DNA from: Chryseobacterium echinoideorum
GTDB taxonomy: Bacteria > Bacteroidota > Bacteroidia > Flavobacteriales > Weeksellaceae
Direction of reading: 5' to 3'
DNA length: 64,000 bases
Assembly: GCF_007474535.1 (NCBI RefSeq)
Contig: NZ_VKNW01000004.1
Location: 62,001-126,000, forward strand
Positions within the stretch are counted from its first letter, which is position 1; the number at the start of each line of letters is the position of its first letter. The notes under the pieces are model-generated. The model ran no database searches, was not told where the DNA came from, and worked only from the letters and a program-made list of their open reading frames with translations. The translations under genes and the position numbers were made by a program. Shown one piece after another: positions 45,293 through 62,142 of the stretch.

Positions 45293-45303
45293 GGGCAAAG
45301 AAA

Positions 45304-45330
45304 AAAGCAGTACGTTTTGGGTACTGCTTT
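45304..45330 (-). terminator. Terminator of rteC copy 3
   Basis: On the minus strand AAAGCAGTAC pairs with GTACTGCTTT around a seven-base loop and is followed by a run of T. It lies 21 bases after the rteC stop codon. Confidence 0.8.
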
Positions 45331-45351
45331 CAAATCTTTATTTTGATATAG

Positions 45352-46197
45352 CTAAAGGTCTTTATCCATATATTCTTCGAGGGATATTTTAAGCTGGTCT
45401 AAAAATGCAGTTCTTGAACCTGCTCTTGTTTTCATTCGGTGGAAAGAATGATGAATATCGTTTAACGGAGTTCTAAACAGCACTTGAAAAATCAAAGCCA
45501 ATTTTCTTATCCCTATTTTTCCGTATGCAATGGAATTTGAAGCATAGAGAGCGTATATGAGCTCAATAAGTGCATTTTGAGAATTTGTCCATGAAATATC
45601 CTTATTTGTATCTAAATTCTGTAAAATCGTGTCTGGGTTTTCTTCGGGATTGATTTTGCTGAGCATGTAAGTATAAAGTAATTCATTAGCAATAATATGT
45701 GCAATCTTATTATCATAATACGTTGAGAAGCTGAGGTCAATTTCAAATACGCCACTTTTCAAACCATCGTGATAATTGATCTTTCCAAGTTTGAAATAAG
45801 TATGGTCACGATCTGTTCTACCAGCACGGTAATATCTATAAAAATCTTCATTACAAATATTTTCCTTATATTCTGATTTCAGATTTTTTAATAGGTTTTC
45901 GTAGTAGCTATGATGTATTTTGCCGTTATTGACAGGACAGGTTGTTTCTATGCGGAATACTTTATTGTAGTAAATTAGTTTTCCTAATATTTGCGGTTTG
46001 ATATTCCTGAAAAATTCAATCTCCTGTTGTTCATCTTTAAATCCGGCTTGTAAGACTTTGATTTTTATGGCACAGAGCAGTTCTTTTAGGAACAACGTCA
46101 TTTGATAAGCCTCATTCGCTGTTGGCATCATTTGAGAAGATAGTTTGTCTTCTTGATAATGAATTTGCGATAATATTTTATTCAACACGATTTCCAT
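45352..46197 (-). CDS. rteC: RteC-domain protein, copy 3 (divergent)
   Basis: A 281-residue RteC-like protein. It shares the frame of the family (KPQILGKLIYYNKVFRIETT, FYRYYRAGRTDRDHTYFKLG, ISWTNSQNALIELIYALYAS, IHHSFHRMKTRAGSRTAFLD) but is much less similar to copies 1 and 2 than these are to each other. It is probably the element's own backbone rteC, adjacent to the HTH genes as in CTnDOT. It would activate excision functions. Confidence 0.85.
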   Translation of the reverse strand: MEIVLNKILSQIHYQEDKLSSQMMPTANEAYQMTLFLKELLCAIKIKVLQAGFKDEQQEIEFFRNIKPQILGKLIYYNKVFRIETTCPVNNGKIHHSYYENLLKNLKSEYKENICNEDFYRYYRAGRTDRDHTYFKLGKINYHDGLKSGVFEIDLSFSTYYDNKIAHIIANELLYTYMLSKINPEENPDTILQNLDTNKDISWTNSQNALIELIYALYASNSIAYGKIGIRKLALIFQVLFRTPLNDIHHSFHRMKTRAGSRTAFLDQLKISLEEYMDKDL

Positions 46198-46296
46198 AGC
46201 ATAGTCGTTTAGAGGTTCTCACAATTTGTTTCGGAGTTGCATCTATTGTTGATATGTCAAAATTTGGGAATAATATTGAAACTATTATCACAGTTT

Positions 46297-46311
46297 CTCC
46301 CCAGTGGGGAG
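46297..46311. other. Short perfect hairpin upstream of rteC copy 3
   Basis: CTCCCC and GGGGAG flank a three-base loop about 100 bases in front of the rteC start. It is GC-rich in an otherwise AT-rich gap. It could be an operator or a leader hairpin; T tracts are too weak for a confident terminator call. Confidence 0.35.
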
Positions 46312-46387
46312 ATTTTATTTGTTATTAAGTAGAAGGAAAGGGTAAAAATAAAGGATAAAGAACCAATACTCTTTACCCTTTATTTTT

Positions 46388-46395
46388 TATATTTG
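46388..46395 (+). promoter_or_regulatory. Possible promoter of a small plus-strand ORF
   Basis: TATATTTG matches the Bacteroidota -7 element TAnnTTTG and lies 25 bases before an ATG at 46421. No -33 TTG is present at the usual distance. It would drive transcription against the guide RNA candidate. Confidence 0.35.
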
Positions 46396-46420
46396 CAATA
46401 TTGATTTACAAGGTAATCAA

Positions 46421-46561
46421 ATGAAAATAAGTGCAGTAAGCACCATTACTAAATCGTTACCGATAGTGTTTTCCACTCTTGTAAACTACTCTTTATTAGC
46501 CGCTTTGGGCTATATTAATCTTTTTTTGAAAAAAAGCCCACGCCGTTGTATATACAATTAA
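46421..46561 (+). CDS. Possible 46-residue peptide
   Basis: A short frame starting MKISAVSTITKSLPIVFSTL with a hydrophobic middle (NYSLLAALGYINLFL) and a basic end (KKSPRRCIYN). A -7-like element precedes it and a weak GGGTG/CACCC hairpin with a T run follows at 46595-46619. It could be a small membrane peptide, but its 3' half is antisense to the proposed guide RNA. It may be chance. Confidence 0.3.
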   Translation: MKISAVSTITKSLPIVFSTLVNYSLLAALGYINLFLKKSPRRCIYN

Positions 46562-46621
46562 GTATTTAGTGAGTATTTCAAGACCTCACCCTACGGGTGT
46601 ACAAGCACCCTCATTAATTTT
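46501..46621 (-). ncRNA. Candidate guide RNA of the dead-Cas12f-like protein
   Basis: Directly after the dCas12f-like stop codon the minus strand shows a row of short structures: GGGTG/CACCC (46595-46610), alternative CACCC/GGGTG (46587-46599), GTGAG/CTCAC (46569-46589) and the palindrome TTGTATATACAA (46546-46557). The last ends in ACAAC, similar to the ends of Cas12f repeats. The next bases, GGCGTGGGCT (46544 to 46535) then a T run, would be the guide. Position downstream of the effector gene fits TnpB and Cas12f-derived systems. The strand, ends and guide are inferred from sequence only. Confidence 0.4.
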
Positions 46622-47716
46622 TTATCCAATGATCAACTCAATGCCAGCTTTTTCAGCCTTGTATTTGATTTTGGTCTGCAATTCATAATAACTCCAATTG
46701 CGAAGAACAAATTCATTTTCTTTTGCAATGCCTATTTTTTCTTCGTGATTTTTAAGAATAAGTGTGCCTGCTTGTTGACGGATGCAGAAATCTATAAGCT
46801 GTCGACTGTACACGTGAAGACGATTACTTACGTATCTGCTTTCCAAATTCTTTGTTTTGTGTAATGCCTTCTGTTTTCGTTTTACTCCATTTCCAGAACG
46901 GGCATACGATATACAGTCTTCAATTCTTTTTTGACTTGCCTGAATTGCAAGCCTGCGGTACAAGAATTCTTCTTTTGACCCAATATTGATTCTTACGTTG
47001 TTAGCTTTTGCAACTATGGGATGTTCCAAAGAAAGCGAAGCTTCCGCAATGATTTCAGGTTTTAAAAGGTTTTCCTCTTTTTCGAATTCAAAAACCGCAA
47101 GCCAAAAGATTTTCCTGTCTTTCAGTTGGATCTGCGAAGTGCAAAGTTTTATCTCTTCTTTTAGTAAGCGCTCCATGATTGTTCGTTTATCAGTGTAGTC
47201 ATTACCTAAGTATGTTTTGACAGGTATTGCAAACATATTGAAGCAAAAGGCTTTTATTTCTTCTTCATATCTCATCTTGCTGATACATTTAACAGGAAGC
47301 GGAATAGGAATATCTTTTTTAAAATTTCTCAATGATTTTGTTCCCTGCCAATAGTCGGCTTTATTTTTAGAAAAAGTAGATTGAATCGTATTGTTAAGGC
47401 TCCCTAGAATGTCGGTCGGAATCTCTCCTTTGAAACGGTCAAAGACCATTCTTGCGGTGGTTCCGGTTTTCGAACGGTTAAACATTCCCATCTCATCTTT
47501 TTTTTCATCAGCCAACTTGTATTGGATTTCTTCTGAAAGGTAAAAGAAGTCTTTAATCATTTCCTGAACATACAAATGAGAAGCTATTAAGTTGGCCGCT
47601 CGGAAACATCGGTTTTGATATCGATAGAGTTTTTCCCATATTTCATTTTTTTGATCTGATGGAACGTCAATCAGCAACTGAATTTTTCGGGTAAGTGTCA
47701 TCGTCGATTTTTCCAT
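46622..47716 (-). CDS. Nuclease-dead Cas12f/TnpB-like protein linked to a sigma factor
   Basis: A 364-residue protein with the plan of compact Cas12f/TnpB proteins: an alpha-helical recognition half followed by a RuvC-like half. The RuvC I motif, normally GIDLG, reads RINIG at 242-246, so the aspartate is Asn244. The RuvC II motif reads LILKNHEE (319-326) with Lys322 where the glutamate should be. The final part NWSYYELQTKIKYKAEKAGI (340-359) is the conserved segment before the zinc finger, but the protein ends five residues later, so the finger and the third RuvC aspartate are missing. It cannot cut DNA by the known mechanism. It begins one base after the sigma factor gene, so the two are an operon. 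Best reading: the RNA-guided DNA-binding subunit of an RNA-guided transcription activator. Confidence 0.78.
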   Translation of the reverse strand: MEKSTMTLTRKIQLLIDVPSDQKNEIWEKLYRYQNRCFRAANLIASHLYVQEMIKDFFYLSEEIQYKLADEKKDEMGMFNRSKTGTTARMVFDRFKGEIPTDILGSLNNTIQSTFSKNKADYWQGTKSLRNFKKDIPIPLPVKCISKMRYEEEIKAFCFNMFAIPVKTYLGNDYTDKRTIMERLLKEEIKLCTSQIQLKDRKIFWLAVFEFEKEENLLKPEIIAEASLSLEHPIVAKANNVRINIGSKEEFLYRRLAIQASQKRIEDCISYARSGNGVKRKQKALHKTKNLESRYVSNRLHVYSRQLIDFCIRQQAGTLILKNHEEKIGIAKENEFVLRNWSYYELQTKIKYKAEKAGIELIIG

Positions 47717-47717
47717 A

Positions 47718-48530
47718 TCAAATATGTATTTCAGAGTTGTTTTGATTCTGTAAATATTGATAGGCGTAAAGAAACTCCTGATGGACTTCTTTTTCAGAAA
47801 GTTTTAGTTCCCGTGCAATGACAGCAAATGAAGATTTCTGTTCAAATCTTTTGGTTATAATTTCAATTTGTTGACTGCTAAGTTCAGATTTTTCTATGTT
47901 ATCAGAATTTTTTCTTTTTGGCTCTTCAAAAGAGCTTGTATTAAGGATTTTCCTTAGATCAACAATTGCTCTATTTACTTCATTGCTAATGTCTTTTACA
48001 TTGCTTCCCATTGCTTCTGCAATGGGTTTGTAATGAAAGCCATACTCAAGACACAACCCGATGAGATGTTTTCTTTTAGGATTTAGAACATTTAAAACCT
48101 TTTGGACTTCATCAAAATGTTTTTGATCAGATTCCTGATTGAAGATATGCTCTTTATCTTCCGTTGGATCGTAACCAACAAGATAATCCTGATAATTCTC
48201 AAAACTTTCAAGCGAAGCTGTCAAACGTGCGAATTTGTTTTTTGGAGTATTGAAATAAGATATGCAATCTCTTTTGAGGACAAACCGCAAAAAACCAAGG
48301 ATATGATTCGGAGTTTCTATGGAATCACGATTTAACCATAGTTTGAGAAAGACATCCTGAATTAGGGTTTCAACAACAAAATCATCTTCAAGCATTTGTT
48401 TCCCTATCCAAAACAGCAGCCTTTTGTATTTTAAATGTATATGATTTAGTGCAGAGGGATTACCTTCTTTTAACAGTTTATACAAATGATCTTCAGTAAA
48501 CTTACGGGATAAAATGTTTGTTCTTTTCAT
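47718..48530 (-). CDS. ECF-type sigma factor with an additional C-terminal HTH
   Basis: A 270-residue sigma factor. Residues 5-95 form region 2 (FTEDHLYKLLKEGNPSALNH, LIQDVFLKLWLNRDSI). Residues 135-200 form region 4 (VLNPKRKHLIGLCLEYGFHY, AEAMGSNVKDISNEVNRAIV). After a linker, residues 220-265 add a second HTH-like unit (KSSFAVIARELKLSEKEVHQ) absent from ordinary ECF sigmas of about 190 residues. No anti-sigma or SusCD genes lie nearby. Linked to the dead Cas12f-like protein, it is likely recruited to DNA by it rather than by a promoter motif. The ATG at 48530 is preferred: an ATG at 48536 is possible, and a TTG at 48548 lies in the -7 element. Confidence 0.82.
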   Translation of the reverse strand: MKRTNILSRKFTEDHLYKLLKEGNPSALNHIHLKYKRLLFWIGKQMLEDDFVVETLIQDVFLKLWLNRDSIETPNHILGFLRFVLKRDCISYFNTPKNKFARLTASLESFENYQDYLVGYDPTEDKEHIFNQESDQKHFDEVQKVLNVLNPKRKHLIGLCLEYGFHYKPIAEAMGSNVKDISNEVNRAIVDLRKILNTSSFEEPKRKNSDNIEKSELSSQQIEIITKRFEQKSSFAVIARELKLSEKEVHQEFLYAYQYLQNQNNSEIHI

Positions 48531-48545
48531 AAGCATTGTACTTAG

Positions 48546-48553
48546 CAAAATTA
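48546..48553 (-). promoter_or_regulatory. -7 element of the sigma/dCas12f operon
   Basis: On the minus strand TAATTTTG fits TAnnTTTG and ends 16 bases before the chosen sigma start. No TTG is found at the -33 distance, so the promoter seems to need an activator. About 85-160 bases upstream lies the GC-rich structured region. Confidence 0.5.
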
Positions 48554-48634
48554 TGGCTGGAAGTAAATGCTTATATCTACTAAGAGAATTCTACTCATTT
48601 TCAATACCCTATTTATTTAAGTTTACGAAAAATA

Positions 48635-48740
48635 AACGGCGTGGAACTCAACTTATAGCATTAGAGGCACTGGTATACCCGTGTACGATAAGTGAGCCCA
48701 CGCCGCGGTCGTGGGCAAAGATACTTATCTTCTCGTACAC
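48635..48740. repeat. GC-rich nested inverted repeats upstream of the sigma gene
   Basis: This island holds AACGGCGTGG at 48635-48644 (plus) and GGCGTGGGCT at 48704-48695 (minus), facing each other with ACTTAT-type extensions. Within it, GCCCACG (48696-48702) pairs with CGTGGGC (48710-48716). Around this, GTGTACGATAAGT (48681-48693) pairs with ACTTATC (48723-48729) and CGTACAC (48734-48740). The stems exclude each other partly. GGCGTGGGCT is identical to the start of the proposed guide. Confidence 0.55.
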
Positions 48741-48837
48741 ATAAAAATTACCAGTTTTCTAATGCGAGATTCTAAGCAATTGCTTCAATTTTTAAATTGG
48801 AATAATTGCGTTTTGTTATTTACAAATATAAAAAATT

Positions 48838-48869
48838 CTTTATTGTAATCCAAGTGGATTACAATAAAG
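48838..48869. promoter_or_regulatory. Perfect 32-bp palindrome, operator of the HTH gene
   Basis: CTTTATTGTAATCCA at 48838-48852 and its exact complement TGGATTACAATAAAG at 48855-48869 are separated by AG. The palindrome lies immediately upstream of GTTTTTTG (48875-48882), the likely -7 element, and would cover the -33 position. It is the obvious binding site for the small HTH protein encoded next, as in controller-protein circuits of restriction systems. Confidence 0.7.
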
Positions 48870-48894
48870 TTATGGTTTTTTGCAAAATTGCAAG

Positions 48895-49137
48895 ATGGCC
48901 GCACTCACCGAGGAAGATATAATATTAAAAAATAAAATTGCTGACAGAATTAAGTTTCTTAGAGCCAGTACTGGTTTGTCGCAATCTGAATTTGCCAAAA
49001 AGTTCGAAATTGATAGGCAAATATTAAATCGTTGGGAAAGTAAAAATAATAAGAGAGGATTAACTATTTATACGATAGCAAAATTTTCTAAGCTCATTGG
49101 AATTTCCCTGAAGGATTTTTTTGACTTTGAATCATAA
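48895..49137 (+). CDS. XRE-family HTH regulator (controller-like)
   Basis: An 80-residue Cro/C1-type HTH protein. RIKFLRASTGLSQSEFAKKF and DRQILNRWESK make up the HTH, and IYTIAKFSKLIGISLKDFFD the closing helices. Size and location match controller proteins of restriction-modification loci. It most likely represses its own promoter through the 32-bp palindrome and may control the defence genes behind it. The ATG at 48895 is chosen since the earlier TTG is part of the -7 element. Confidence 0.8.
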   Translation: MAALTEEDIILKNKIADRIKFLRASTGLSQSEFAKKFEIDRQILNRWESKNNKRGLTIYTIAKFSKLIGISLKDFFDFES

Positions 49138-49288
49138 CGATCATAGAAATTTTTCTTGCCATTTTTTAGAGTTTGCAAATGAAATAAATTTATCAGAATC
49201 TTTATTTTTTTTGAAATTAGGATGCTATTACTAGTGATATCGATGTATTAAAATTCAAAAGTTCCATAATCATATTTTTTTCTTTTCG

Positions 49289-49296
49289 TATTTTTG
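49289..49296 (+). promoter_or_regulatory. -7 element before the WYL gene
   Basis: TATTTTTG is a perfect TAnnTTTG element ending 22 bases before the ATG at 49318. A -33 TTG is not seen, so regulation by an activator or a relaxed promoter is possible. Confidence 0.5.
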
Positions 49297-49317
49297 GAAA
49301 ACTTACGTGAAGACATT

Positions 49318-50307
49318 ATGGCAAGTAATAAAAATGCGGTAATCAGATATAAAGCACTGGATAAATGCTTATCTAATACTTACAAGAAATTCTATATACA
49401 AGATCTGATTAATTATTGTTCTTTTGTTTTAACAGAACATTTCGTAAGGGAAACAACTATTTCTCGTAGACAAATTTTCGCAGATATCAATTTTATGCGC
49501 AGTGAAGCTGGTTTTAGTGCACCTATTGAAAGCTATAAAGATGGTAAGAAAGTTTTTTATAGGTATGCAGATCCAGAATTTTCTATTTTAAATAGTCCGT
49601 TAAATCCATCAGAATTAAACTCGCTTAATGAGGCGATGGAAACTCTGTCTAGAATAAATAATTTGCCAGGCTTCGATTGGGTAAATACGATGCAGGCAAA
49701 ATTAAATTCCGGTATAAACCAATCTCAAAACCAAAGACAAATCATCAGTTTTGAAGATAATGAATTTTTAAAGGGTATTGAACTGCTAAATCCTTTGTAT
49801 CATCATATTGCAAACACTCAAGCTTTAGATATCAAATATCAAGGTTTTAATTCGGACAAAGAAAAAACTTTCAATATATCTCCTTATTATCTAAAACAAT
49901 ACAATAATAGATGGTTTTTATTCGGTCATAATCATAAATATGATAAAATTCAAAATTTAGCTTTAGATAGGATGGTTGATATTCAAACGTCTAAAACAGA
50001 ATTTAAAACATGCGAAATTGATTTTAAATATTATTTTGATGATATCATTGGAGTTAGTAACGACGAATCCAAGGAAGTTGTTGATGTTAAAATAGAGCTT
50101 TCGGAAAACATTATTCCATATGTCCGCTCGAAACCTATTCATGGTTCACAAAAGATCAGAGGAAATGTACTACATCTTCAAGTGAAGCTTAATTATGAAT
50201 TGGAATCTTTAATTTTATCTTATGGTGAAAAAATGTATGTTTTGGAACCGAAGGAGTTAGCTCTAATTTTAAAGAAAAGGCTAGATAACATTAAATTTGC
50301 TTTTTAG
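49318..50307 (+). CDS. WYL-domain transcription regulator
   Basis: A 329-residue regulator. The N-terminus is a winged HTH (TISRRQIFADINFMRSEAGF) and residues 160-230 form the WYL domain (ALDIKYQGFNSDKEKTFNIS, YYLKQYNNRWFLFGHNHKYD, LALDRMVDI). WYL proteins such as BrxR and CapW repress defence loci until a nucleotide or DNA fragment is sensed. It precedes the methyltransferase-kinase gene by 60 bases and likely regulates the whole island, including perhaps the CBASS genes. Confidence 0.85.
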   Translation: MASNKNAVIRYKALDKCLSNTYKKFYIQDLINYCSFVLTEHFVRETTISRRQIFADINFMRSEAGFSAPIESYKDGKKVFYRYADPEFSILNSPLNPSELNSLNEAMETLSRINNLPGFDWVNTMQAKLNSGINQSQNQRQIISFEDNEFLKGIELLNPLYHHIANTQALDIKYQGFNSDKEKTFNISPYYLKQYNNRWFLFGHNHKYDKIQNLALDRMVDIQTSKTEFKTCEIDFKYYFDDIIGVSNDESKEVVDVKIELSENIIPYVRSKPIHGSQKIRGNVLHLQVKLNYELESLILSYGEKMYVLEPKELALILKKRLDNIKFAF

Positions 50308-50367
50308 TGCAGTTAGGTTGCACATTAAAAACGGATATTTGCAATAAGAAAAATTAGACCATATTTT

Positions 50368-52893
50368 ATGATTACTTTTAACTCTCAGAATCAAGCACAC
50401 TTACAAACAATTACATCTGATATTTGGAACATATTTAATATTTTACGACATGAAAATATAAAGCCTGAAGACTATCACGTTGTGCTGTTTTTCTTGTCCA
50501 TATATAAAGATGGTTTAATAAATGAGGAATTTTTTTTAAGGCAAGATTATCCATTAAGTATATGGATTAATCGTCAAATATTGAACTCTGATACGTATTC
50601 TTATTACGAATTTAAAAACCTGTATGGAGATATTTATATCTACTTCGAGCCAATTATAAATAAAATTAGTGATCATAGTTTACGGTATGTTTTTCAGACA
50701 ATACTCAGATTAAATTACTCAGATTTCTCACAGAATTTCGCGGAAATTTTCGATGATATTTTATACAAAATAGCTGAAGCACAAGGTAAATCAGGTGGGA
50801 ATTTTATTCAACCCGTTGAGCTGACCTTGGCAATGTTAAGTTTGGCTAATTTGAAAGGCTACTCAAAAATTTACAATCCTTTTGCTGGGCTTGCTTCTTT
50901 TGGTGTTTTTTTGAAAAACGGACAAGAATATTTTGCGCAAGAACTTAATCCTGAAACATGGGCACTGGGAAAACTGAGACTACATGCACATCGGAAGAAA
51001 AATGAAAATTTTTTACTTCAAAATTCATTGGAATACTGGCCAAATAGTATAGAAAAGTTTGATTTAATAATATCAAATCCCCCTTTTGGAATCAGATTAT
51101 CAAGATTTAATCATTGGGGTGAGTATTCAAGTAAACAAACAATTGATGAGTTCTTAATCAGAGAAGGGATAAAATCATTAAGTGATGAAGGTAAATTAAT
51201 TGCTGTAATTCCACCAAAAACTTTATTTAGTGGTGGAAATGATTTCCAATTACGAAAATTTTTAATTGAAGAAGATTTAATTGATACAATAATAGCACTC
51301 CCAGGAGGATTGTTATTAAATTCCGGAATGCCTTTGACTATTATTCTTTTAAATAAAGCAAAAACAAATTCCGGGAAAGTTAAATTTATTGATGCTAAGA
51401 ATTTTGTCACAAATAGTAATTCGAGATTAAAAGTTTTAAATTCTAAAGAATTAACTAATTTTCTTAATGATGAAATATTAGATGAAAATATAATCCGAAC
51501 TATTGATGCAAATGAAGTTCGTGAGAATGATTATAATCTGAATGTGCCAAGATATTTTAAAAAAGAGACTGAAGGTGTAAGGTTAGGAGATCTCATTGAA
51601 GTTATAACTAATCGTAAGACAAATCTTCCTGAAAAAGGAAAATTAATTCGAATTCGAGATTTAAAAGATGACAATGTAGATTTTCTATTGGATGAATATG
51701 CTTTAGAAAACTCAGAGTTGAAAAAAAATAATGTTCAGCCAATATATGATACTTGTTTGTTAATGGCAATTCGATGGAAAACGCTAAAACCAACGCTCTT
51801 CGAATACAAAGAAACACCAGTTTATAAAAGTTCCGACATATTAGCTGCTAAAGTAAACGAACTTAAAGTAGAAAAAGCTTATTTGATCACTGAATTGCAG
51901 TCTGAATATGTAAAACAGCAATTGGATTCTTATCGGTTAGGCTCCACAATTCCGTTTATCCGACAAGTTGATTTACTTGAAGTTAAAATTAAATTACCCT
52001 CGCTAGAGGAACAGAGAGCAAAAGTTAGTGGAATTGTTGAACTTTCATCAAAACTTAAACAGTTTGAAATCGAAAAAAACAATTTATTGACTGGGCTTAA
52101 AAAAAATGAGATGGAAAGCTCGACATCTTTGAGTCATATTCTAGGAAAACCATTATTAAGCATCGGATCATCCCTAGAAATTATACAAAGCGCGTTAAGT
52201 AAGTTGCATCCCAATTGGAAAGAGATTATCATAAGTGAAAGTCGGCAGTTTAAAATGGTCGATGCATTTGAATCTATATCAAAGAATTTAAAATACATTC
52301 AAGAGTTAACAGATAAAAATACATCGTTAATGAGTATTTCTTCATTTGATTTGAATGAGGTTAATTTCTTGAAATTTTTATCTGAATTTATTAAAAATGA
52401 AAGAAAGAGCTTATCTAGCAGTATCGAATTAACTCTTGATATTCATGAAGATATAAAGGAAATGACAAAACAAATACTAATTTTAGGTAATGAGCAAAAA
52501 CTAAAAATTGTATTAATAAATCTAATTGATAATGCTAAAAACCATGCTTTTATCGATAAAGAGATTGAAAATGAGATAAATATCGAAATCCTGCCATATA
52601 CGGGTAATGAGGATGAGGCCAATTCTCTGAATTACAATATTAACAGTAAAAAATCGTATGTTGAAATTCGAGTTTCTAATACAGGAAAAGGATTCCCGAA
52701 AAATTTTACACTTGAAGATTATGTTCGTAAAAATTTTGCTGTAGGTAAAAACGCAAACAGGGGTTTGGGTGGTTACGAAGTGAATGAAATTATAAAAGCA
52801 CATAATGAAGGAAGAAAAGCTCTGAATCTTTTTTCTTTCGCTGAAGATCAAAAATATAGTTCAACTATTTCTTTTTTAATACCAATGATTTAA
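50368..52893 (+). CDS. Adenine methyltransferase fused to a specificity-like region and a histidine kinase domain
   Basis: An 841-residue multidomain protein. Residues 140-330 are a type I-like N6-adenine methyltransferase with NPFAGLASFG (motif I, about 170) and SNPPFG (motif IV, about 236). Residues 400-560 look like one HsdS target-recognition domain (GVRLGDLIEVITNRKTNLPE, IRQVDLLEVKIKLPSLEEQR). Residues 585-840 resemble a histidine kinase: a helix with SLSHILGKPLLSIGSSLEII, and the GHKL ATPase boxes LINLIDNAKNHAF (N box), VSNTGKGFP (G1) and NRGLGGYE (G2). A response regulator follows after two bases. Coupling of DNA methylation to phosphorelay is highly unusual. Its GC content is much lower than that of hsdM and hsdR. 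Confidence 0.8.
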   Translation: MITFNSQNQAHLQTITSDIWNIFNILRHENIKPEDYHVVLFFLSIYKDGLINEEFFLRQDYPLSIWINRQILNSDTYSYYEFKNLYGDIYIYFEPIINKISDHSLRYVFQTILRLNYSDFSQNFAEIFDDILYKIAEAQGKSGGNFIQPVELTLAMLSLANLKGYSKIYNPFAGLASFGVFLKNGQEYFAQELNPETWALGKLRLHAHRKKNENFLLQNSLEYWPNSIEKFDLIISNPPFGIRLSRFNHWGEYSSKQTIDEFLIREGIKSLSDEGKLIAVIPPKTLFSGGNDFQLRKFLIEEDLIDTIIALPGGLLLNSGMPLTIILLNKAKTNSGKVKFIDAKNFVTNSNSRLKVLNSKELTNFLNDEILDENIIRTIDANEVRENDYNLNVPRYFKKETEGVRLGDLIEVITNRKTNLPEKGKLIRIRDLKDDNVDFLLDEYALENSELKKNNVQPIYDTCLLMAIRWKTLKPTLFEYKETPVYKSSDILAAKVNELKVEKAYLITELQSEYVKQQLDSYRLGSTIPFIRQVDLLEVKIKLPSLEEQRAKVSGIVELSSKLKQFEIEKNNLLTGLKKNEMESSTSLSHILGKPLLSIGSSLEIIQSALSKLHPNWKEIIISESRQFKMVDAFESISKNLKYIQELTDKNTSLMSISSFDLNEVNFLKFLSEFIKNERKSLSSSIELTLDIHEDIKEMTKQILILGNEQKLKIVLINLIDNAKNHAFIDKEIENEINIEILPYTGNEDEANSLNYNINSKKSYVEIRVSNTGKGFPKNFTLEDYVRKNFAVGKNANRGLGGYEVNEIIKAHNEGRKALNLFSFAEDQKYSSTISFLIPMI

Positions 52894-52895
52894 TT

Positions 52896-54077
52896 ATGAG
52901 TAAAATATACAATGTACTTTGGATAGATGATGAACATGATGATGATGCATTATTACCATTTCTTGTTCAAGCCGAATCTGAGGGAATAAAATTAGAAGGA
53001 TACGGTTCATTTAAAGAAGGTTTTTATGCGCTTGAATCAAATATAAATAATTATGATGTTATATTGCTTGATGCACTTTTTTTTGAAGATGAAACCTCAG
53101 AAACACCTAATCCTGCCGGTTTAGGCTCTGCTATTAAGAAAATAAATGAGTTAAGAAGTAAAAAAACTTTTCCATTTTTTGTACTATCTGGGCAAACTCA
53201 CTTTACTGATGTTACAAATCCCATACTTGAAGCTTTCAAAATTAGATGTTACAATAAAAAAAATCCAGAAGATGTAAAGGAGCTATTAATTAATATCAAG
53301 ATTGAAGCAGATAATCAAATCGTATCTCAAATTAAACATGAAAATCAATTACTTTTTAAAATTTTAAAAGAATATCCAAACGAAGTTAGAGATACATTTA
53401 TTACCTTTTTTAGAAATCAAAAAGAAGGTAATAATTACTTTGATGATCAATTATATTTTACACAATTAAGAATTATTTTAGAGCATTTATTTAGGAAAGC
53501 AAATGCTATTGGATTACTTCACGATGATTGTGTTCAAAAAGGAAATAATCAAGTGAATTTAACAGAGTCTTGTTTGTTTTTATCGGGCTTTGATACAAGA
53601 CATTTGACTGTAAATTGTGAAATAACTCATTTTCCAAAATTAATCGCTCAAAATGTAAAAAATATTATTCATACTACAGGTGCTGCATCTCATACCTCCA
53701 ATGTAGATGTAACTCAAAATATCGATATACAAGCATATAGAAATGAAATAATTTCACCATATCTTTTGTATTCTTTAGCCTTTCAACTAATGGATGTGTT
53801 AATATGGTTCGATAGTTACAGTAAAAAGAATAGTGATGTAGCAACCAATAAATCCTATTGGAAAAGTTTTAATAAAGATGCCTACGGAAACAAAATCGAA
53901 ACCGAAGCTATTATTAGCATTGCTACAAATGGTTGGGGAACTGTTGAAATTAACAAAAGGACGAAGAAAGTTAGTATTCATAAGAATGAAATTACTCAAA
54001 ATGGATTATCTCTCGGCGATCAGATTTCATTTGTTGTTAAAGACAGCTCCCTTGCACAAAACATAACAAAAATTTAA
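52896..54077 (+). CDS. Response regulator with unusual effector part
   Basis: A 393-residue protein. Residues 1-130 form a receiver domain: acidic pocket LWIDDEHDD (Asp11, Asp12), phosphoacceptor Asp59 in YDVILLDALFF, Ser98 in VLSGQ and Lys121 or 122. The remainder has no DNA-binding HTH. A helical middle (QLRIILEHLFRKANAIGLLH) is followed by a C-terminal segment NGWGTVEINKRTKKVSIHKN that resembles a cold-shock/OB-fold strand pattern. It is the partner of the kinase domain encoded two bases upstream and may bind nucleic acid or a nuclease subunit when phosphorylated. Confidence 0.78.
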   Translation: MSKIYNVLWIDDEHDDDALLPFLVQAESEGIKLEGYGSFKEGFYALESNINNYDVILLDALFFEDETSETPNPAGLGSAIKKINELRSKKTFPFFVLSGQTHFTDVTNPILEAFKIRCYNKKNPEDVKELLINIKIEADNQIVSQIKHENQLLFKILKEYPNEVRDTFITFFRNQKEGNNYFDDQLYFTQLRIILEHLFRKANAIGLLHDDCVQKGNNQVNLTESCLFLSGFDTRHLTVNCEITHFPKLIAQNVKNIIHTTGAASHTSNVDVTQNIDIQAYRNEIISPYLLYSLAFQLMDVLIWFDSYSKKNSDVATNKSYWKSFNKDAYGNKIETEAIISIATNGWGTVEINKRTKKVSIHKNEITQNGLSLGDQISFVVKDSSLAQNITKI

Positions 54078-54095
54078 TTAGAATTATAATAATCA

Positions 54096-55733
54096 ATGAT
54101 CACCGGAGAATTAAAATCCCAAATAGACCAAATATGGAACACCTTCTGGACTGGAGGCGTTACCAACACCATAACCATCGTAGAGCAGTTGACCTATCTT
54201 ATTTTCATCAAAGATTTAGATGAAAAGGAAATCAGAAACGAGCTCAAAGCCAAACGAGGTTTCAAATACACCCCGGTTTTCACAGAAGACCAGCAAAATT
54301 TCCGTTGGAAAAATCTCAAGGAAATGGATGTCAACTCCAGACATCAGATTTTTTCCAATACCGTCGACGGTATTTTCCCTTTCATCCGTTCATTAGGAAA
54401 AGAAACCAGCCTTTTTGCGACACACATGAAAGGCGCAACTTTCGGAATTTCTAAACCTTCAGTCTTGGATCAGGTGATGGAAAAACTGGAGAATATCGAT
54501 ATGTCTAACCAAGACACCAAAGGAGATATTTACGAATATCTTTTGTCTAAACTGGAAGGTGGTGGTACTGCAGGTCAGTTCCGTACCCCAAGACATATTA
54601 TCAAAATGATGGTAGAACTGATGCAGCCTACTTTAGAAGATACCATTTGCGACCCTTCCGTAGGTACAGCCGGATTTTTGGTCGGTGCCAAAGAATACAT
54701 CGACAAACACAACGATGTAACAGAGCTCGACAAATATTCCGCTCACATCAACACCAAGATGTTCAACGGAACCGAGTTTGATGCTACCATGTTGCGTATC
54801 GCCTCGATGAACTTGTATCTTCACGGTGTAGAAGAACCCAACATTATTGATGTAGATGCCGTTTCTAAAGACAATAGCATTGCCAACGAGCATACCTTAA
54901 TTCTCGCCAATCCGCCTTTTAAAGGAACCATTGACAAAGAAAGCATCGCTCCCGGACTAAAAAACGTAACCGATACTTCCAAAACAGAATTATTGTTTTT
55001 AGCCTTGATGCTCAGACAACTGAAAATTGGTGGTCGTGCTGCCGTGATTGTTCCCGATGGTGTTTTATTCGGAAGCGGAAAAGCCTACAAAAGCATCCGT
55101 GAAGAGATTATCTCGGGCAACAAACTGGAAGCCGTGATTTCTATGCCAAGTGGCGTGTTTAAACCTTATGCCGGAGTAAGCACCGCCATTATTATCTTTA
55201 CCAAAACCGGAAACGGCGGTACCGACAACGTGTGGTTCTACGATATGCAAGCCGACGGAAAATCTTTGGACGACAAACGCTCGCTTTTGGTAGATGAAGA
55301 CCTCTTTACCTCGTTCTCTTTTGGCAACGCTTTGGAAACCATGGATCTGGAAGCCAAGCAAAAACTGCATGATAAATTTAACCTTCCCCAGATTATTGAC
55401 CATTACCATTATTACAAAAGTGATTTCTTTGCAAAGAAACACGGCAAAAACGGTGAAATTTTAGAGGTAAATGATGCGCCTGAAAATTTAGGCTACAGCC
55501 ATTTTATGCCTGAAACCATTACCCACGATTACAGCAACCGTACTTCACAGTCTTTCCTCGTGCCTTTTAAAGAAATTGCAGCCAACGATTGGGATTTATC
55601 GATTAACCGATACAAAGAAATCGTGTACGAAGAAGTAGCTTATGATGCGCCGAATGTGATTTTGGAGAGGATTAGTTCTTTAGGAAATGAAAGAAACTCT
55701 TTGGTTGAAAAATTAAGAATAAATCTAAACTAA
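54096..55733 (+). CDS. hsdM: Type I restriction-modification methyltransferase subunit
   Basis: A 545-residue HsdM. The N-terminal helical domain (IDQIWNTFWTGGVTNTITIV) is followed by the methyltransferase core: YEYLLSKLEGGGTAGQFRTP, DPSVGTAGFLVGA (motif I) and LANPPFKG (motif IV). It makes N6-methyladenine with HsdS and protects host DNA. It begins 18 bases after the response regulator, hence perhaps in the same transcript. Its codon use is more GC-rich than that of the genes before it, suggesting separate origin. Confidence 0.93.
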   Translation: MITGELKSQIDQIWNTFWTGGVTNTITIVEQLTYLIFIKDLDEKEIRNELKAKRGFKYTPVFTEDQQNFRWKNLKEMDVNSRHQIFSNTVDGIFPFIRSLGKETSLFATHMKGATFGISKPSVLDQVMEKLENIDMSNQDTKGDIYEYLLSKLEGGGTAGQFRTPRHIIKMMVELMQPTLEDTICDPSVGTAGFLVGAKEYIDKHNDVTELDKYSAHINTKMFNGTEFDATMLRIASMNLYLHGVEEPNIIDVDAVSKDNSIANEHTLILANPPFKGTIDKESIAPGLKNVTDTSKTELLFLALMLRQLKIGGRAAVIVPDGVLFGSGKAYKSIREEIISGNKLEAVISMPSGVFKPYAGVSTAIIIFTKTGNGGTDNVWFYDMQADGKSLDDKRSLLVDEDLFTSFSFGNALETMDLEAKQKLHDKFNLPQIIDHYHYYKSDFFAKKHGKNGEILEVNDAPENLGYSHFMPETITHDYSNRTSQSFLVPFKEIAANDWDLSINRYKEIVYEEVAYDAPNVILERISSLGNERNSLVEKLRINLN

Positions 55734-56918
55734 ATGATAGCTTTAAAAGAATTAATTGAAAAGCCGATAAGTGGTGATTGGGGAATTGAAGGAGAAAATG
55801 TTAATGTATTAAGAACAACCAATTTTCAGAATAATGGTGTAATCAATTTTGAAAATGTGGTTAAGAGGAATGTGCCAGAAAAAGTAATTGAACAAAAAAA
55901 ATTACTGAGAGGTGATATCATAATTGAAAAATCTGGAGGAAGTCCTACACAGCCAGTTGGAAGAGTGGTTTTTTTTGATACTGACGGCGAATATATTTGT
56001 AATAATTTCACATCGATTCTTCGTCCGAAGAAGGATTTAATCAATTCTAAATATCTGCATTATATACTTTTTGCAAACCACAAAATTGGTATCACAGAAA
56101 AGTTTCAAAATAAAACAACTGGCATTATAAACCTTCAATTATCTCGATTTATTGAAGACATCCAAATCCCACTTCCTCCCCTCGCAACCCAAAAACACAT
56201 TGCCCAGATTTTAGACGATGCCGCTGCGTTGCGAGAAAAAACCGCCCAACTCATCGCAGCATACGACGCCCTTGCGCAATCTATCTTTTTGGATATGTTT
56301 GGTGATCCGGTGAAAAATCCAAGAGGTTGGAAATCCAAGAAGTTAGGAGACATTTGTGATATAGGTTCTAGTAGGCGAGTTTTTGTTGATGAACTTGTTG
56401 AAAGAGGAATTCCTTTTTATAGAGGAAAAGAGATTGGTGAATTAAGTATAAGCAAATCCATTAAATCTGAGTTATTTATTTCGAAGGAGCATTATGAAAA
56501 ATTAAAAAAAGAAACTGGTGTTCCTAATATTGGTGATTTATTATTGCCTTCAATTTGCCCCGATGGAAGAATCTTAAGAGTAAATGATAATAATCCTTTC
56601 TATTTTAAAGATGGTCGTGTTTTATGGATAAAAGTAGATAATTTGAAAATCAATAGTTTTTATTTAAAAACTTTTTTAAAGGAATTATTTTTTACAAATT
56701 ATAGTAATATAGCATCAGGAACTACTTTTGCAGAATTAAAAATAGTTGCATTAAAGAAAATTAAGTTCCTTGAGCCTCCACTTAGTTTACAAAATGAGTA
56801 TGCCGATAAAATTGCTTTAATAGAGCAGCAAAAAGAGCTGGCAAAACAGGAGCTCGCAGCAAGCGAAGATTTGTTTAATTGCCTGTTGCAGAAAGCCTTC
56901 AAAGGAGAATTAGCATAA
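55734..56918 (+). CDS. hsdS: Type I restriction-modification specificity subunit
   Basis: A 394-residue HsdS with two target-recognition domains (about residues 1-130 and 195-345). Each is followed by conserved helices (IPLPPLATQKHIAQILDDAA, then PPLSLQNEYADKIALIEQQK). The first TRD starts without the usual lead-in helix. Both TRDs are clearly more AT-rich than the conserved parts, a sign of domain exchange. It determines the DNA sequence recognised by the complex. It follows hsdM directly. Confidence 0.9.
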   Translation: MIALKELIEKPISGDWGIEGENVNVLRTTNFQNNGVINFENVVKRNVPEKVIEQKKLLRGDIIIEKSGGSPTQPVGRVVFFDTDGEYICNNFTSILRPKKDLINSKYLHYILFANHKIGITEKFQNKTTGIINLQLSRFIEDIQIPLPPLATQKHIAQILDDAAALREKTAQLIAAYDALAQSIFLDMFGDPVKNPRGWKSKKLGDICDIGSSRRVFVDELVERGIPFYRGKEIGELSISKSIKSELFISKEHYEKLKKETGVPNIGDLLLPSICPDGRILRVNDNNPFYFKDGRVLWIKVDNLKINSFYLKTFLKELFFTNYSNIASGTTFAELKIVALKKIKFLEPPLSLQNEYADKIALIEQQKELAKQELAASEDLFNCLLQKAFKGELA

Positions 56919-57047
56919 GTCATTGCGAGGAGAGACAAAGGAACGACGCGGCAATCCTTTGAATGTGGCGTACCAGTTCAACAGATTGCTTCGTGCCTCG
57001 CAATGACGCACCAGTCGAACAGATTGCTTCGCTTCGCTCGCAATGAC
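56918..57047. repeat. REP-like GTCATTGCGAGG repeats
   Basis: GTCATTGCGAGG at 56919-56930 is found inverted as CCTCGCAATGAC at 56996-57007, and again as CTCGCAATGAC ending at 57047. The two inverted copies are each preceded by AACAGATTGCTTCG, giving a tandem unit of about 39 bp. Such elements are dispersed in many Bacteroidota genomes. It splits the restriction operon and may stabilise the upstream message. Confidence 0.7.
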
Positions 57048-57117
57048 AAAAAAAATAAAATAATATTACAATAAATCACTATCTTGGAGAATTGTAAATA
57101 AAACCCCAAAATAACCA

Positions 57118-58245
57118 ATGGAGCAAAGGTTTTCAGACATCGTCGCACTCATCACGCAGTCTCGGGCAACGGCAATCAAAGCCGTCAATATCGAGCTCAT
57201 CAATCTCTACTGGAATGTTGGTGCTTACATCAAGCAAAAACTGTCCGTAGCAGAATGGGGCGATAAAACCGTAGACGAGTTGGCCGTTTTTATTCAGAAA
57301 AACAATCCCGAGCTCAAAGGTTTTAACCGAGCTGGTTTGTTTAGAATGATTCAGTTTTATGATACCTATGCTTCAGTACATTTTGTGTCCTCAGCGCGGA
57401 CACAATTACAAAGTTCAGAAAATCAAGAATCTACAATTGTCGCCTCACTGAGGCGACAATCAGAAAATACGGATAATAAAGATCCTGAAATTGTCGCCGC
57501 ACCGGGGCGACAATTTCCGGTTGAGTTGCAGGACATCAGAAAAACCATTCTTGCCCAGCTTAGTTGGACGCATCACCGCACGATTTTTTCACGTTGCAAA
57601 ACCGAGGAAGAAAGAGAATTCTACATCCGTTTAAGCATCAAAGAAAATTACAGTGTGCGTGAGCTGGAAAGACAGATCAACGCAGCGGTTTTTGAGCGTA
57701 CCATGATTAGCGATGCCCAAGTTTCTACATTGCCTACTGAATTGAAGGCTGATGTTACTAAGGTATTTAAAGACAGTTACGTATTCGAGTTTCTTAATTT
57801 ACCTGAAATCCACAGCGAATCTGATCTTCAGAAAGGTTTGCTGAAGCAGATGAAAAATTTTATTCTGGAACTGGGAAGAGATTTTCTTTTCATCGGAGAA
57901 GAATATAAAGTGCAGGTAGGAAATTCAGATTTTTATATCGATCTTTTATTTTACCATCGTGGGTTGCAGTGTTTGGTAGCTTTTGAACTGAAGGCAGATA
58001 AATTTAAACCTGAACATTTGGGGCAACTTAATTTTTATCTCGAAGCCTTAGACCGAAACGTAAAAAACGACAACGAAAACCCAAGTATCGGGATTTTATT
58101 GTGCAAAGACAAAGACACTGAAGTGGTAGAGTTCGCTTTAAGCAGAAGTCTTTCTCCCACCATGGTTTCAGAATACAAAACCCAGCTGCCGGATAAGAAA
58201 GTATTGCAACAAAAATTACATGAATTATTTGATGGAGAAGTATAA
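57118..58245 (+). CDS. PDDEXK nuclease-domain protein of the DUF1016/YhcG family
   Basis: A 375-residue protein. The N-terminal DUF1016 part (RATAIKAVNIELINLYWNVG, LSWTHHRTIFSRCKTEEERE) is followed by a PDDEXK nuclease fold at about residues 240-345. The catalytic residues are seen in NSDFYIDLLFYH and VAFELKADKFKPEHLGQLNF. The family often sits inside type I restriction loci of Bacteroidota and probably adds a nuclease function. Residues 88-135 form a repetitive insert encoded by three palindromes. It lies between hsdS and hsdR in the same direction. Confidence 0.85.
   Translation: MEQRFSDIVALITQSRATAIKAVNIELINLYWNVGAYIKQKLSVAEWGDKTVDELAVFIQKNNPELKGFNRAGLFRMIQFYDTYASVHFVSSARTQLQSSENQESTIVASLRRQSENTDNKDPEIVAAPGRQFPVELQDIRKTILAQLSWTHHRTIFSRCKTEEEREFYIRLSIKENYSVRELERQINAAVFERTMISDAQVSTLPTELKADVTKVFKDSYVFEFLNLPEIHSESDLQKGLLKQMKNFILELGRDFLFIGEEYKVQVGNSDFYIDLLFYHRGLQCLVAFELKADKFKPEHLGQLNFYLEALDRNVKNDNENPSIGILLCKDKDTEVVEFALSRSLSPTMVSEYKTQLPDKKVLQQKLHELFDGEV
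57383..57514. repeat. Three in-frame palindromes inside the DUF1016 gene
   Basis: TTGTGTCC/GGACACAA at 57383-57405, ATTGTCGCCTCA/TGAGGCGACAAT at 57436-57460 and ATTGTCGCC/GGCGACAAT at 57490-57514 recur every 53-54 bp, that is every 18 codons. They encode the repeats TIVASLRRQ and EIVAAPGRQ. They resemble small palindromic elements that insert without breaking the reading frame. Confidence 0.65.
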
Positions 58246-58275
58246 AAGCTTCATCTTAATATAAAAACATAAACT

Positions 58276-61200
58276 ATGAACACCAATTTCCAGTTTCTAG
58301 CCCAAGAATGGCCCGAATTTTTTGACCGATGCGTGAAAGCAGAAAAATTCGTCATTACCGATCCACGTACTTCATTGATGATTGCAAGATCGGCACTGGA
58401 ACTGGCGGTAAACTGGATGTTCAGCCACGATGAAGAATTGGAATTGCCTTTTGATACTTCACTCAACTCTTTGATGAAGCAGGGAAGTTTCCAGGATCAG
58501 TTTCAACAGAAATTTTATACAGAAATTGATCTCATCCGTAAAACCGGAAATCTTGCTATTCACAACAAACAAGTTTCCGATTACGACTCCCGAAACATTA
58601 TCGATCATTTATTCTATTTTGCTAAATGGTTTGCAAAGTCATACTCTGAAAATGATTTAGGTGATTTAGGATTTTTCGACTGGGATTTTATACCTACCGA
58701 TGGAGCCGATGCATTATCTAAAAAAGAGCTTGAAAAACAGCAGACGCAATTTGAAGGTCATCTTAATCAGTATAAAAATAAATTAGAAGAAGCCTCCAAA
58801 AAATATGCGGAGCTGGCTGAGAAAAGCGAGCTGTATCAAAGACGAATTGAAGAGCAACAGGCACAGATTGAAGCCAACAAAAAAGCAGCCAACGAAGCCG
58901 ACGAAATTACACACCCAAGAAACGAGTACGAAACACGAAAGTACTTCATCGATGTTTCGTTGCGTGAAGCAGGCTGGGATTTGTCGGGAAGCAAAGACAA
59001 AGAATTCAAAGTGCAGTATATGCCTTCTTCCACCAATATTTCAGAAACAGGCTATGTAGATTATGTGCTTTGGGACGATGACGGTTTGCCATTAGCTGTA
59101 GTTGAAGCCAAAAAAACGATGGAGAATGCTTCCAAAGGTGAAAATCAGGCACAACTCTACGCAGAAGCTATGGAAAAAATGTCTGGCCGCCGCCCCGTGA
59201 TGTACTACACCAACGGTTTTGAAATCTATCTCTGGGATGATCAGTTTTATAAAAAGTCAAGACTCGTTCACGGTTTTTACACCAAAAAAGAACTGCAGAC
59301 TTTGATGTTCCGCAGAACCAACAGAAAGGATATCAGAACGACAACGATAGACCAGACCATTACCGACAGAGCGTATCAGCTGAGAGCCATCCGTTCGGTA
59401 GCCGAGCGTTTTGCAGGAAATGATAAAACTTCTGGCAAGCTTATCGGCACGCATCGTGGCGCTTTGTTGGTTTTGGCCACAGGAACCGGGAAAACAAGAA
59501 TCAGTATTGCCATTTCTAAGTTGTTGCTGGAAGCCAACTGGGCAAAAAGAATTTTGTTTTTGGCCGACCGAAGAAGTTTGGTAAGACAGGCAAAAAACAA
59601 CTTTGTAAAGCTGATGCCCGAACATACCAGCGTGAATCTTCTCACAGAAAAAGACAACCCCGAAGCCAGAATTGCCTTCTCTACCTATCCCACCATGATG
59701 GGTTTAATAGACGGTTCCAAGGAAAACGACAAACGTTTTTATGGTGTGGGACATTTTGATTTAATCATCATCGATGAAGCTCACCGCTCGATTTATAAAA
59801 AATATCAGGCGATTTTTGATTATTTCGATGCCTTATTCTTAGGATTAACAGCCACACCGATTGATAAAGTTGATAAAAGTACGTATGCGATGTTTGGTTT
59901 GCCAGACAAATCGCCTACCGATGCCTATACTTTTCCGGAAGCAGTTGCCAATAAACATTTGGTTCCGTATCATTCCATAGAATTACCTACCAAGTTTATG
60001 AGGACTGGTATCCGTTACGATGAACTGTCGGAATCAGAAAAAGAAGAATTTGAAGAAGAAATTCTGGACGGCGACGAAGCTTCAGGAGAAGAGGTGGTAG
60101 AAGCCAATGAACTTAATAACTGGCTTTTTAACAAAGACACGGCACTGAAAACGCTACAATATCTCGTAGACAACGGCATTAAAAAAAGAGATGGCAGCGA
60201 GCTTGGCAAAACCATTATTTTTGCCCGAAACAAAAAGCACGCTCAGTTTCTGAAAGATATGTTTCTGGAGCTTGATCCTGAACTTTATGGTAATGAATAT
60301 GTAAAAGTCATCACCCACGGAGAACCAAAAGCGGAAGAATTTATAGACCGCTTCTGTGATGAGGAAAAAGACAGACTTCCGCAAATCGTCATCTCGGTAG
60401 ATATGATGGATACAGGGATTGATGCACCAAGCTGTGTAAATCTGATGTTTTACAAACCGGTAAAATCCTATGCTAAATTCTGGCAGATGATTGGCCGTGG
60501 CTCCCGTTTGCGAAAAGATCTTTTTGGGGAAGGTTTAGACAAACAACATTTTCTAATTTTTGACCTCTACCAAAATTTTGAATTTTTTAATCAGAATCCG
60601 AAAGGCACAGAGGCAAGTTCACAAAAAAGTTTAAACGAAATTGTTTTTGGTTTAAAACTGCAACTAGCTTTATATCTGAAAGGAGAAAACTTCAGTGCTG
60701 ATGAAGAACTGAAAAACTACAGCGAAAGGTTGCTCGACGAATTGCATCAGTCGGTTGCAGACTTGAACAAAGAACGTTTTGATGTAAAAATGAAACTCGA
60801 AACCGTGATGAACTATCAAAACCGTGAAGTTTGGAATCATCTGGAAAAAGGCGATGTAAAAAAGATTCAGGATGTTTTGGCGCCATTGGTTCGTCCCACT
60901 CAATCGGATACCGACTTGGCTCGTTTTTATGATAAAATGATTTATGCCTTGATGCTGAAACGCATTGAAACACCAAATACTGAAGAGTTTTTGGCAAAGC
61001 TGACGGTGCCTATCAGTAAAGTAGCAACTATTTCTAAGAAACTTTTAAAAAAGACATCCGTTCCCGAAGTTAAAGACAATGAAGAACTTGTAAAGCTTCC
61101 ATTACAGGAAACATTCTGGAAAAATGACGGATTGAAACATCTTGAAAAAATAAGAACGGGAATTCGGGAACTGGTAAAATATCTGGATCCTGCCGACCAA

Positions 61201-61758: not shown

Positions 61759-62142
61759 AAAATGACATTGATATATATATTAGTCTAGTGCGAAATCATT
61801 TAGAAGTTCGAATAAATTTTAGAAACGAAATATTTTAAATACATCTATTCTTAAAATACAATATTGCTTCATTTAAAGTAAGCATGTATAAATTCACGGG
61901 TCGAAAAAATTGATCAAAATATAGCTAAAGATAAATTATTTTTTGCTGTGCAGATACATTGCGCACGTAGCATCTAAATTTGTTTCAAAGTTTAGAAGAA
62001 ATATCAAATAATGCCGTTTCAAAATTATTCTTTACACTGTTTTAAGAATGTGTAAGAGAAGAAATTAAATATGGGTTTTGATGCTAAACTGACAGTTACA
62101 TAGCTGTCAAAGATAATTTTCAAATAATAAAATTATAAGCAT
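61759..62142. other. AT-rich gap before the CBASS genes, with a 20-bp palindrome
   Basis: Only one clear structure is visible: TGACAG at 62090-62095 and CTGTCA at 62104-62109 flank a partly symmetrical core, giving TGACAGnTAnnTAnCTGTCA. A -7-like TAATTTTC follows at about 62113-62120, so the palindrome covers the -33 region. It is a candidate operator for the CBASS operon, perhaps bound by the WYL protein. The rest of the gap shows nothing that can be named. Confidence 0.5.

Follow-up and report, generated by a model that had tools for sequence, protein, structure and literature searches.

A gene for an ECF sigma factor that directly adjoins a gene for a nuclease-dead relative of Cas12f raises the question of whether the two proteins form an RNA-guided transcription system and, if so, which genes such a system addresses. 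This question was followed up here by computational analysis of a 64,000-nucleotide stretch of Chryseobacterium echinoideorum DNA (the window), of the 3.8-Mb genome from which it comes (G000), and of related loci in other genomes. Sigma-E–dCas12f systems, described in preprints of 2025, bind DNA in an RNA-guided manner and recruit RNA polymerase without a promoter motif, whereby the target is preceded by a minimal 5′-G TAM and transcription starts at a fixed distance, tens of bases past the target. Our literature search found no paper on sigma-E–dCas12f. RNA-guided transcription by such systems is already known, and what the present analysis adds are the likely targets. A first-pass annotation of this DNA had called the targets unknown. 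In place of this statement, specific predicted targets are named below.

The sigma factor–dCas12f gene pair and its surroundings

Both genes lie on the minus strand and are separated by a single base (Table 1). The sigma ORF yields 276 aa when it is read from the TTG at 48548 and 270 aa plus stop when it is read from the ATG at 48530, whereby the latter start position agrees with the starts of the sigma relatives. Pfam matches were obtained to Sigma70_r2, Sigma70_r4, and r4_2, and the protein combines a region 2 with two stretches that resemble region 4, of which the second is the extra C-terminal HTH (Pfam, NCBIfam). Among the PDB sequences, it is matched best by the RpoE chain of 9n9q (E 3.1e-79), whereby the match covers residues 23-269 of the ORF read from the TTG. 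For the neighboring protein, the top PDB-sequence match is “Nuclease-deactivated Cas12f” (9n9c, 9n9m, 9n9o, 9n9q; E 6.7e-156, residues 1-364), a homology that is not due to chance. Further Cas12f relatives rank behind these entries with E values of 1.7e-36 and weaker, the match to 9nzo_B (E 1.7e-36) covering residues 84-361. Against the guided_TnpB profile, dCas12f aligned to positions 24-338 of 389 and stayed under the cut-off of that model, and only the first 20 of the 60 positions of the Cas12f1-like TNB domain were matched (E 0.046). Judged from these early ends of the family matches, the C-terminal zinc finger and the RuvC-III part are absent. In the alignment to 9nzo, which unlike the dCas12f of the window retains both the Asp and the Glu of the RuvC site at the corresponding positions, the RuvC-I Asp (VGVDLGI) stands opposite Ser227 within AEASLSL and the RuvC-II Glu opposite Lys322. 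The first-pass annotation had already described a sigma gene of 271 codons with an extra C-terminal HTH that ends one base ahead of a 364-residue Cas12f/TnpB-like gene, as well as the Lys322 replacement and an end short of the zinc finger and RuvC III, all of which agrees with our analysis. It had named Asn244 as the replacement of the RuvC-I Asp, and here the alignment corrects it to Ser227.

The locus had also been proposed to be a sigma-E–dCas12f system, and this assignment is borne out: both proteins are near full-length relatives of two chains of 9n9q, including the extra C-terminal HTH of the sigma factor, the RuvC catalytic residues are lost together with the C-terminal part, the sigma and dcas12f genes are adjacent in the window and in the relatives that were read, and a conserved predicted gRNA lies alongside the gene pair, as in these systems. 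Cas12f nucleases (type V-F) and IS605 TnpB are sequence relatives of dCas12f over residues 84-361, but the RuvC site is not intact here, with two acidic residues replaced and the C-terminal part missing. Unlike in these comparison systems, there is no array near the pair, since a repeat search of 45300-50400 yielded nothing CRISPR-like, and no TnpA, Cas1, or Cas2 was detected among the 20 window proteins scanned with Pfam; both absences had been noted before. A further comparison concerns TldR, which represses and is not known to have a sigma partner, whereas an ECF sigma gene adjoins dcas12f at the present locus. TldR is nuclease-dead and RNA-guided with a short 6-nt seed (PMC13418256), and the present locus resembles TldR in its nuclease-dead protein, its nearby gRNA, and the RNA-guided regulation that is predicted here.

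Downstream of the pair lie genes for RteC, for two HTH-sized proteins (the one scanned matching HTH_17), for a DUF4099/DUF3945 protein, and for a topoisomerase, which we take to be the excision-side genes of a CTnDOT-like conjugative element. On the other side, in divergent orientation, genes for an XRE-type regulator, a WYL protein, type I restriction-modification, a YhcG-like nuclease, and a CBASS-type cyclase are found, which confirms the earlier placement of the locus between a conjugative element and a defense island. The island with the WYL regulator, the restriction-modification genes, the nuclease, and the cyclase extends over 49294-63429, and one methylase in it (50368-52893) also has a weak HATPase_c match. 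A second sigma–dcas12f copy (91% identical) is present on contig C8 of G000. This copy (L043) is close to DarT and DarG genes and to an AAA/OLD-like gene. A defense-specific role, to which the neighbors had prompted us, was rejected: in a survey of 149 proteins around 41 loci, of which 128 were scanned and 21 left out for size, the neighbors are mixed mobile and defense genes, and the commonest Pfam family reaches 5/128. In plasmid and phage collections, only distant TnpB-like matches with <30% identity were obtained, in 4 and 2 records, respectively.

Table 1. Features of the sigma factor–dCas12f locus, in coordinates of the window.
Feature	Position	Strand	Details and basis
TATATTTG box upstream of the leader	48815..48835	minus	sequence position
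Structured leader element upstream of the sigma gene, holds the predicted target	48633..48768	minus	fold z; covariance model R1
Predicted target in the leader: G (possible TAM) at 48704, then GCGTGGGCT...	48687..48704	minus	12/16 guide positions
Leader tail GAGTTCCACGCCG ahead of a T-rich stretch	48637..48649	minus	possible attenuator; tail-helix covariation
ECF sigma factor gene	47718..48530	minus	270 aa plus stop; extra C-terminal region-4-like HTH
dCas12f gene	46622..47716	minus	364 aa; RuvC-I Asp replaced by Ser227, RuvC-II Glu by Lys322
Predicted guide-RNA scaffold	46545..46613	minus	ends ...GTATATACAAC; block 3′ of dcas12f in 42 close loci
Predicted guide GGCGTGGGCT, then T-run	46528..46544	minus	sequence after the scaffold in close loci

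The predicted guide RNA and the structured leader element

Two RNA elements had been overlooked in the first-pass annotation, a gRNA downstream of the gene pair (46613-46528) and a structured leader upstream of it (48768-48633). The predicted gRNA follows directly after dcas12f and consists of a scaffold and the guide (G)GCGTGGGCT. The same block is located 3′ of dcas12f in all of the 42 close loci (40 from named genomes, the second copy in G000, and the window), whereby the copy of L008 ends ahead of the guide. The scaffold end ...ACAAC, which resembles Cas12f repeats, is followed by GGCGTGGG in 40 of the 42 close loci as detected by script and, with L016 added by reading, in 41 of them. In a set of 27 scaffolds drawn from four families, pairing in three helices amounts to 97.4%, with 17 double-change cells compared to 4.2 in shuffled data. 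The scaffold plus guide of the window, when folded alone, reached a z of -0.90 and thus was no better than shuffles, so that the case for a gRNA rests on conservation. A gRNA with a conserved scaffold and a 3′ guide next to the genes, which belongs to a sigma-E–dCas12f system, is predicted here by sequence and covariation. In L025 and in most loci of family f3, one dcas12f is followed by a series of two or three gRNAs that differ in their guides. In other families, what follows the same scaffold is variable, also between the tandem gRNAs of one locus. Such tandem gRNAs (L025:5109-5566, L186, L187, L188) constitute a small array-like arrangement.

The leader upstream of the sigma gene is preceded by the TATATTTG box, which we assume to resemble the -7 motif of Bacteroidota promoters, and folds with a z of -4.36 (147 nt). 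In an alignment of 64 copies (60 distinct; A2) that was fitted to the covariance model, pairing in the nested helices reaches 99.5%, and double-change cells number 166 compared to 37 in shuffled data. The leader tail GAGTTCCACGCC can pair with the guide-matching strand in place of the hairpin, and this tail helix is 98.9% paired over the 60 distinct rows, with 12 double-change cells compared to 2.7. Since the two pairings compete for the same bases and exclude each other, the leader may function as a switch or an attenuator. The scan of the window with Rfam (15) gave nothing at gathering score, and permissive Rfam scans of two leader copies led to weak matches to other families only, none of them meaningful on the element. 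A 6S-like RNA was considered as well, and no 6S family came up in these permissive scans. By its covariation, the leader is a structured RNA family of Bacteroidota without an Rfam match in the scans run.

Five leader copies were identified in G000, where the covariance model counts six. They precede both sigma–dcas12f operons, a SusC–SusD operon on contig C1 whose third gene encodes an S9 peptidase, a 144-aa gene at another place on C26, and the gene of a small predicted protein on C12. According to the covariance model, the element occurs in 107 of 118 genomes of the genus. dCas12f was found in 9/36 genus genomes, 23/395 genomes of the order sample, and 8/395 genomes of the phylum sample. Since the element is commoner than dCas12f within the genus, the leader must have a role without dCas12f. 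All of the 40 sampled leaders have a same-strand gene downstream, which encodes a protein of ~175 aa (25), SusC (12), or both (3); these are 40 of 45 consecutive rows of the model list (left out: G126:C4:215296, G112:C59, G112:C54, G012:C28, and G000:C1), which score below the best ones, the latter being mostly located before sigma–dcas12f. The ~175-aa protein (L139:960-1484, with relatives in L131-L170) follows 28 of the 40 sampled leaders, and no Pfam family was assigned to it in the two that were scanned. The gene after SusD encodes an S9 peptidase in all seven leader-linked SusC operons examined (L215-L221), which comprise six of the 15 SusC-bearing sampled loci and that of G000, with SusD scanned in two of the seven. 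An M16 peptidase is encoded in leader- or target-linked SusC–SusD operons of two f3 genomes. The peptidase genes in these SusC–SusD operons hint at peptide uptake.

Sites that match the guide

Within the window, CGGCGTGG has three occurrences where 0.36 would be expected, one of them in the gRNA and the other two in the leader, and this recurrence is not due to chance. At the level of the genome, the 10-mer GGCGTGGGCT has seven sites in G000, namely one gRNA, four leader elements, and two others that fall outside leader elements, whereas the reversed control has one. The guide sequence recurs before the operon of the window, before the second G000 copy, and before the SusC–SusD–S9-peptidase operon. 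Against the region upstream of the sigma gene, the guide of the window matches at 12 of 16 positions, a short match whose value 5 of 200 shuffles reach. An intact target lies ahead of the operon’s own sigma gene in 27 of the 42 close loci, and none intact is present in the other 15. The base 5′ of the target, which was tested in the window and four other close loci, is a C when the guide is read directly after ...CAAC, and in the close loci it is a G only when the guide is read from one base later. In the sites used, guide, target, and gene have the same orientation, which suits initiation downstream. A possible difference from the published sigma-E–dCas12f systems is that, in the present loci, nearly all members of a family-level group have one guide in common and that this guide fits a structured leader.

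Families with other guides, which offer the better test, also yielded guide matches. In G239, whose dCas12f is 65% identical, the guide matches its sigma leader at 15/16 positions (0/200 shuffles), and a second element is located before SusC–SusD. The guide of the second gRNA from G816 matches at 14/16 (0/200 shuffles), with a second element before SusC–SusD–M16 peptidase genes, and for both of these guides the base 5′ of the target is directly a G. In the distant genome G767, no leader element was found at the sigma gene, and the guides carry GCCTTCCC. Here, AAAGCCTTCCC has six sites in the genome and the reversed control none; of these sites, one precedes the sigma gene, two belong to gRNAs, two fall inside genes, and one is located 83 nt ahead of susC in a SusC–SusD–M16 operon. 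The 15-nt guide of the third G767 gRNA occurs exactly twice in 4 Mb, namely in that gRNA and 83 nt before the susC start, and a related guide matches the region upstream of the sigma gene at 13/16 (0/200 shuffles). For G512 (41%), there was no guide match upstream of the sigma gene; GGCTCNCTTATC has three sites (gRNA, leader element, and one inside a coding frame; control one), whereby the leader site has one mismatch at the N and a register that is shifted along the element. In the tested region upstream of sigma, no convincing target was detected for G742, whose guide matches at best at 10/16 (reached by about 72% of shuffles), nor for G524, G492, and the guide of the first gRNA in either G816 or G791; for the third guide of G791, the closest match is on the opposite strand and outside the element. 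Going by these matches, the guide differs between several families while the class of matched gene stays. We regard such a joint change of guide and target between families as strong sequence evidence that guides of this kind are used.

Proposed mechanism and alternative explanations

The homology, the lost residues, the conserved scaffold, and the guide-matching sites on the same strand upstream of genes can be read from the DNA itself, and RNA-guided polymerase recruitment at the locus is predicted from this homology together with the preprints on the family. We consider it probable that the predicted sigma–dCas12f–gRNA complex recruits RNA polymerase at leader elements and in this way switches on its own operon and the SusC–SusD–S9-peptidase operon. 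The gRNA would load into dCas12f, the loaded complex would bind DNA at the guide-matching leader sites, and the bound complex would activate the genes downstream, whereby its action on its own operon would close a feedback loop. The likely function would be an RNA-addressed activation of SusCD–peptidase operons plus autoregulation. If transcription started tens of bases beyond the target, the strand that the leader tail needs would be missing from the transcripts, and without one arm of the possible terminator these transcripts might read through; this anti-attenuation is the most speculative step. It is conceivable, although we would rather doubt it, that sigma–dCas12f is an RNA-guided anti-attenuator, which starts transcription within leaders of a new structured family of Bacteroidota, past the stopping arm, and that a single guide thereby lets a mobile cassette control both itself and SusC–SusD–peptidase operons, a guide that different lineages have re-aimed along the same regulatory region.

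The same sites could also be read differently. If dCas12f–gRNA were a repressor that sits on the leader and blocks an upstream promoter or elongation as TldR does, the sigma factor would serve ordinary promoters; the target is located downstream of a promoter-like box, and TldR proteins are inactivated TnpB relatives that are RNA-guided repressors with that 6-nt seed (PMC13418256). However, 9n9q contains dCas12f together with a sigma factor of this type, and the two genes are neighbors both in the window and in the relatives that were read; we regard repression as unlikely. It would be more surprising still if the shared GGCGTGGGCT were a by-product, that is, if gRNA and leader shared a motif for some other reason and the post-scaffold sequence were no working guide. 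The near constancy of the guide in the close group and the frequent leaders without dCas12f would suit this explanation, but in the other families the post-scaffold sequence varies, even among tandem gRNAs, and follows local sites.

The lowest probability is given to a guide that acts on RNA, where it would pair with the leader tail GAGTTCCACGCC and free the transcript from termination, DNA not being the target. Although the tail is able to base-pair with the guide core and also with the hairpin strand of the leader, the G767 guide is identical to the 5′ arm of another inverted repeat close to susC, the G512 guide is shifted along the element, and TnpB/Cas12f proteins are established to act on DNA. 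Under the preferred reading, polymerase recruitment at leader elements, the predicted targets are named sites that are open to reporter testing, and through them RNA-guided transcription would be tied to uptake operons of the SusCD–peptidase type as well as to a conserved leader RNA without an Rfam match.

Shortened or decayed-looking dcas12f copies were observed as well. These include L042, where the match covers residues 47-364 only, as well as G024:C15:572659-573754 and G005:C3:372752-373129. Such apparently decayed copies are consistent with gain and loss of the system.
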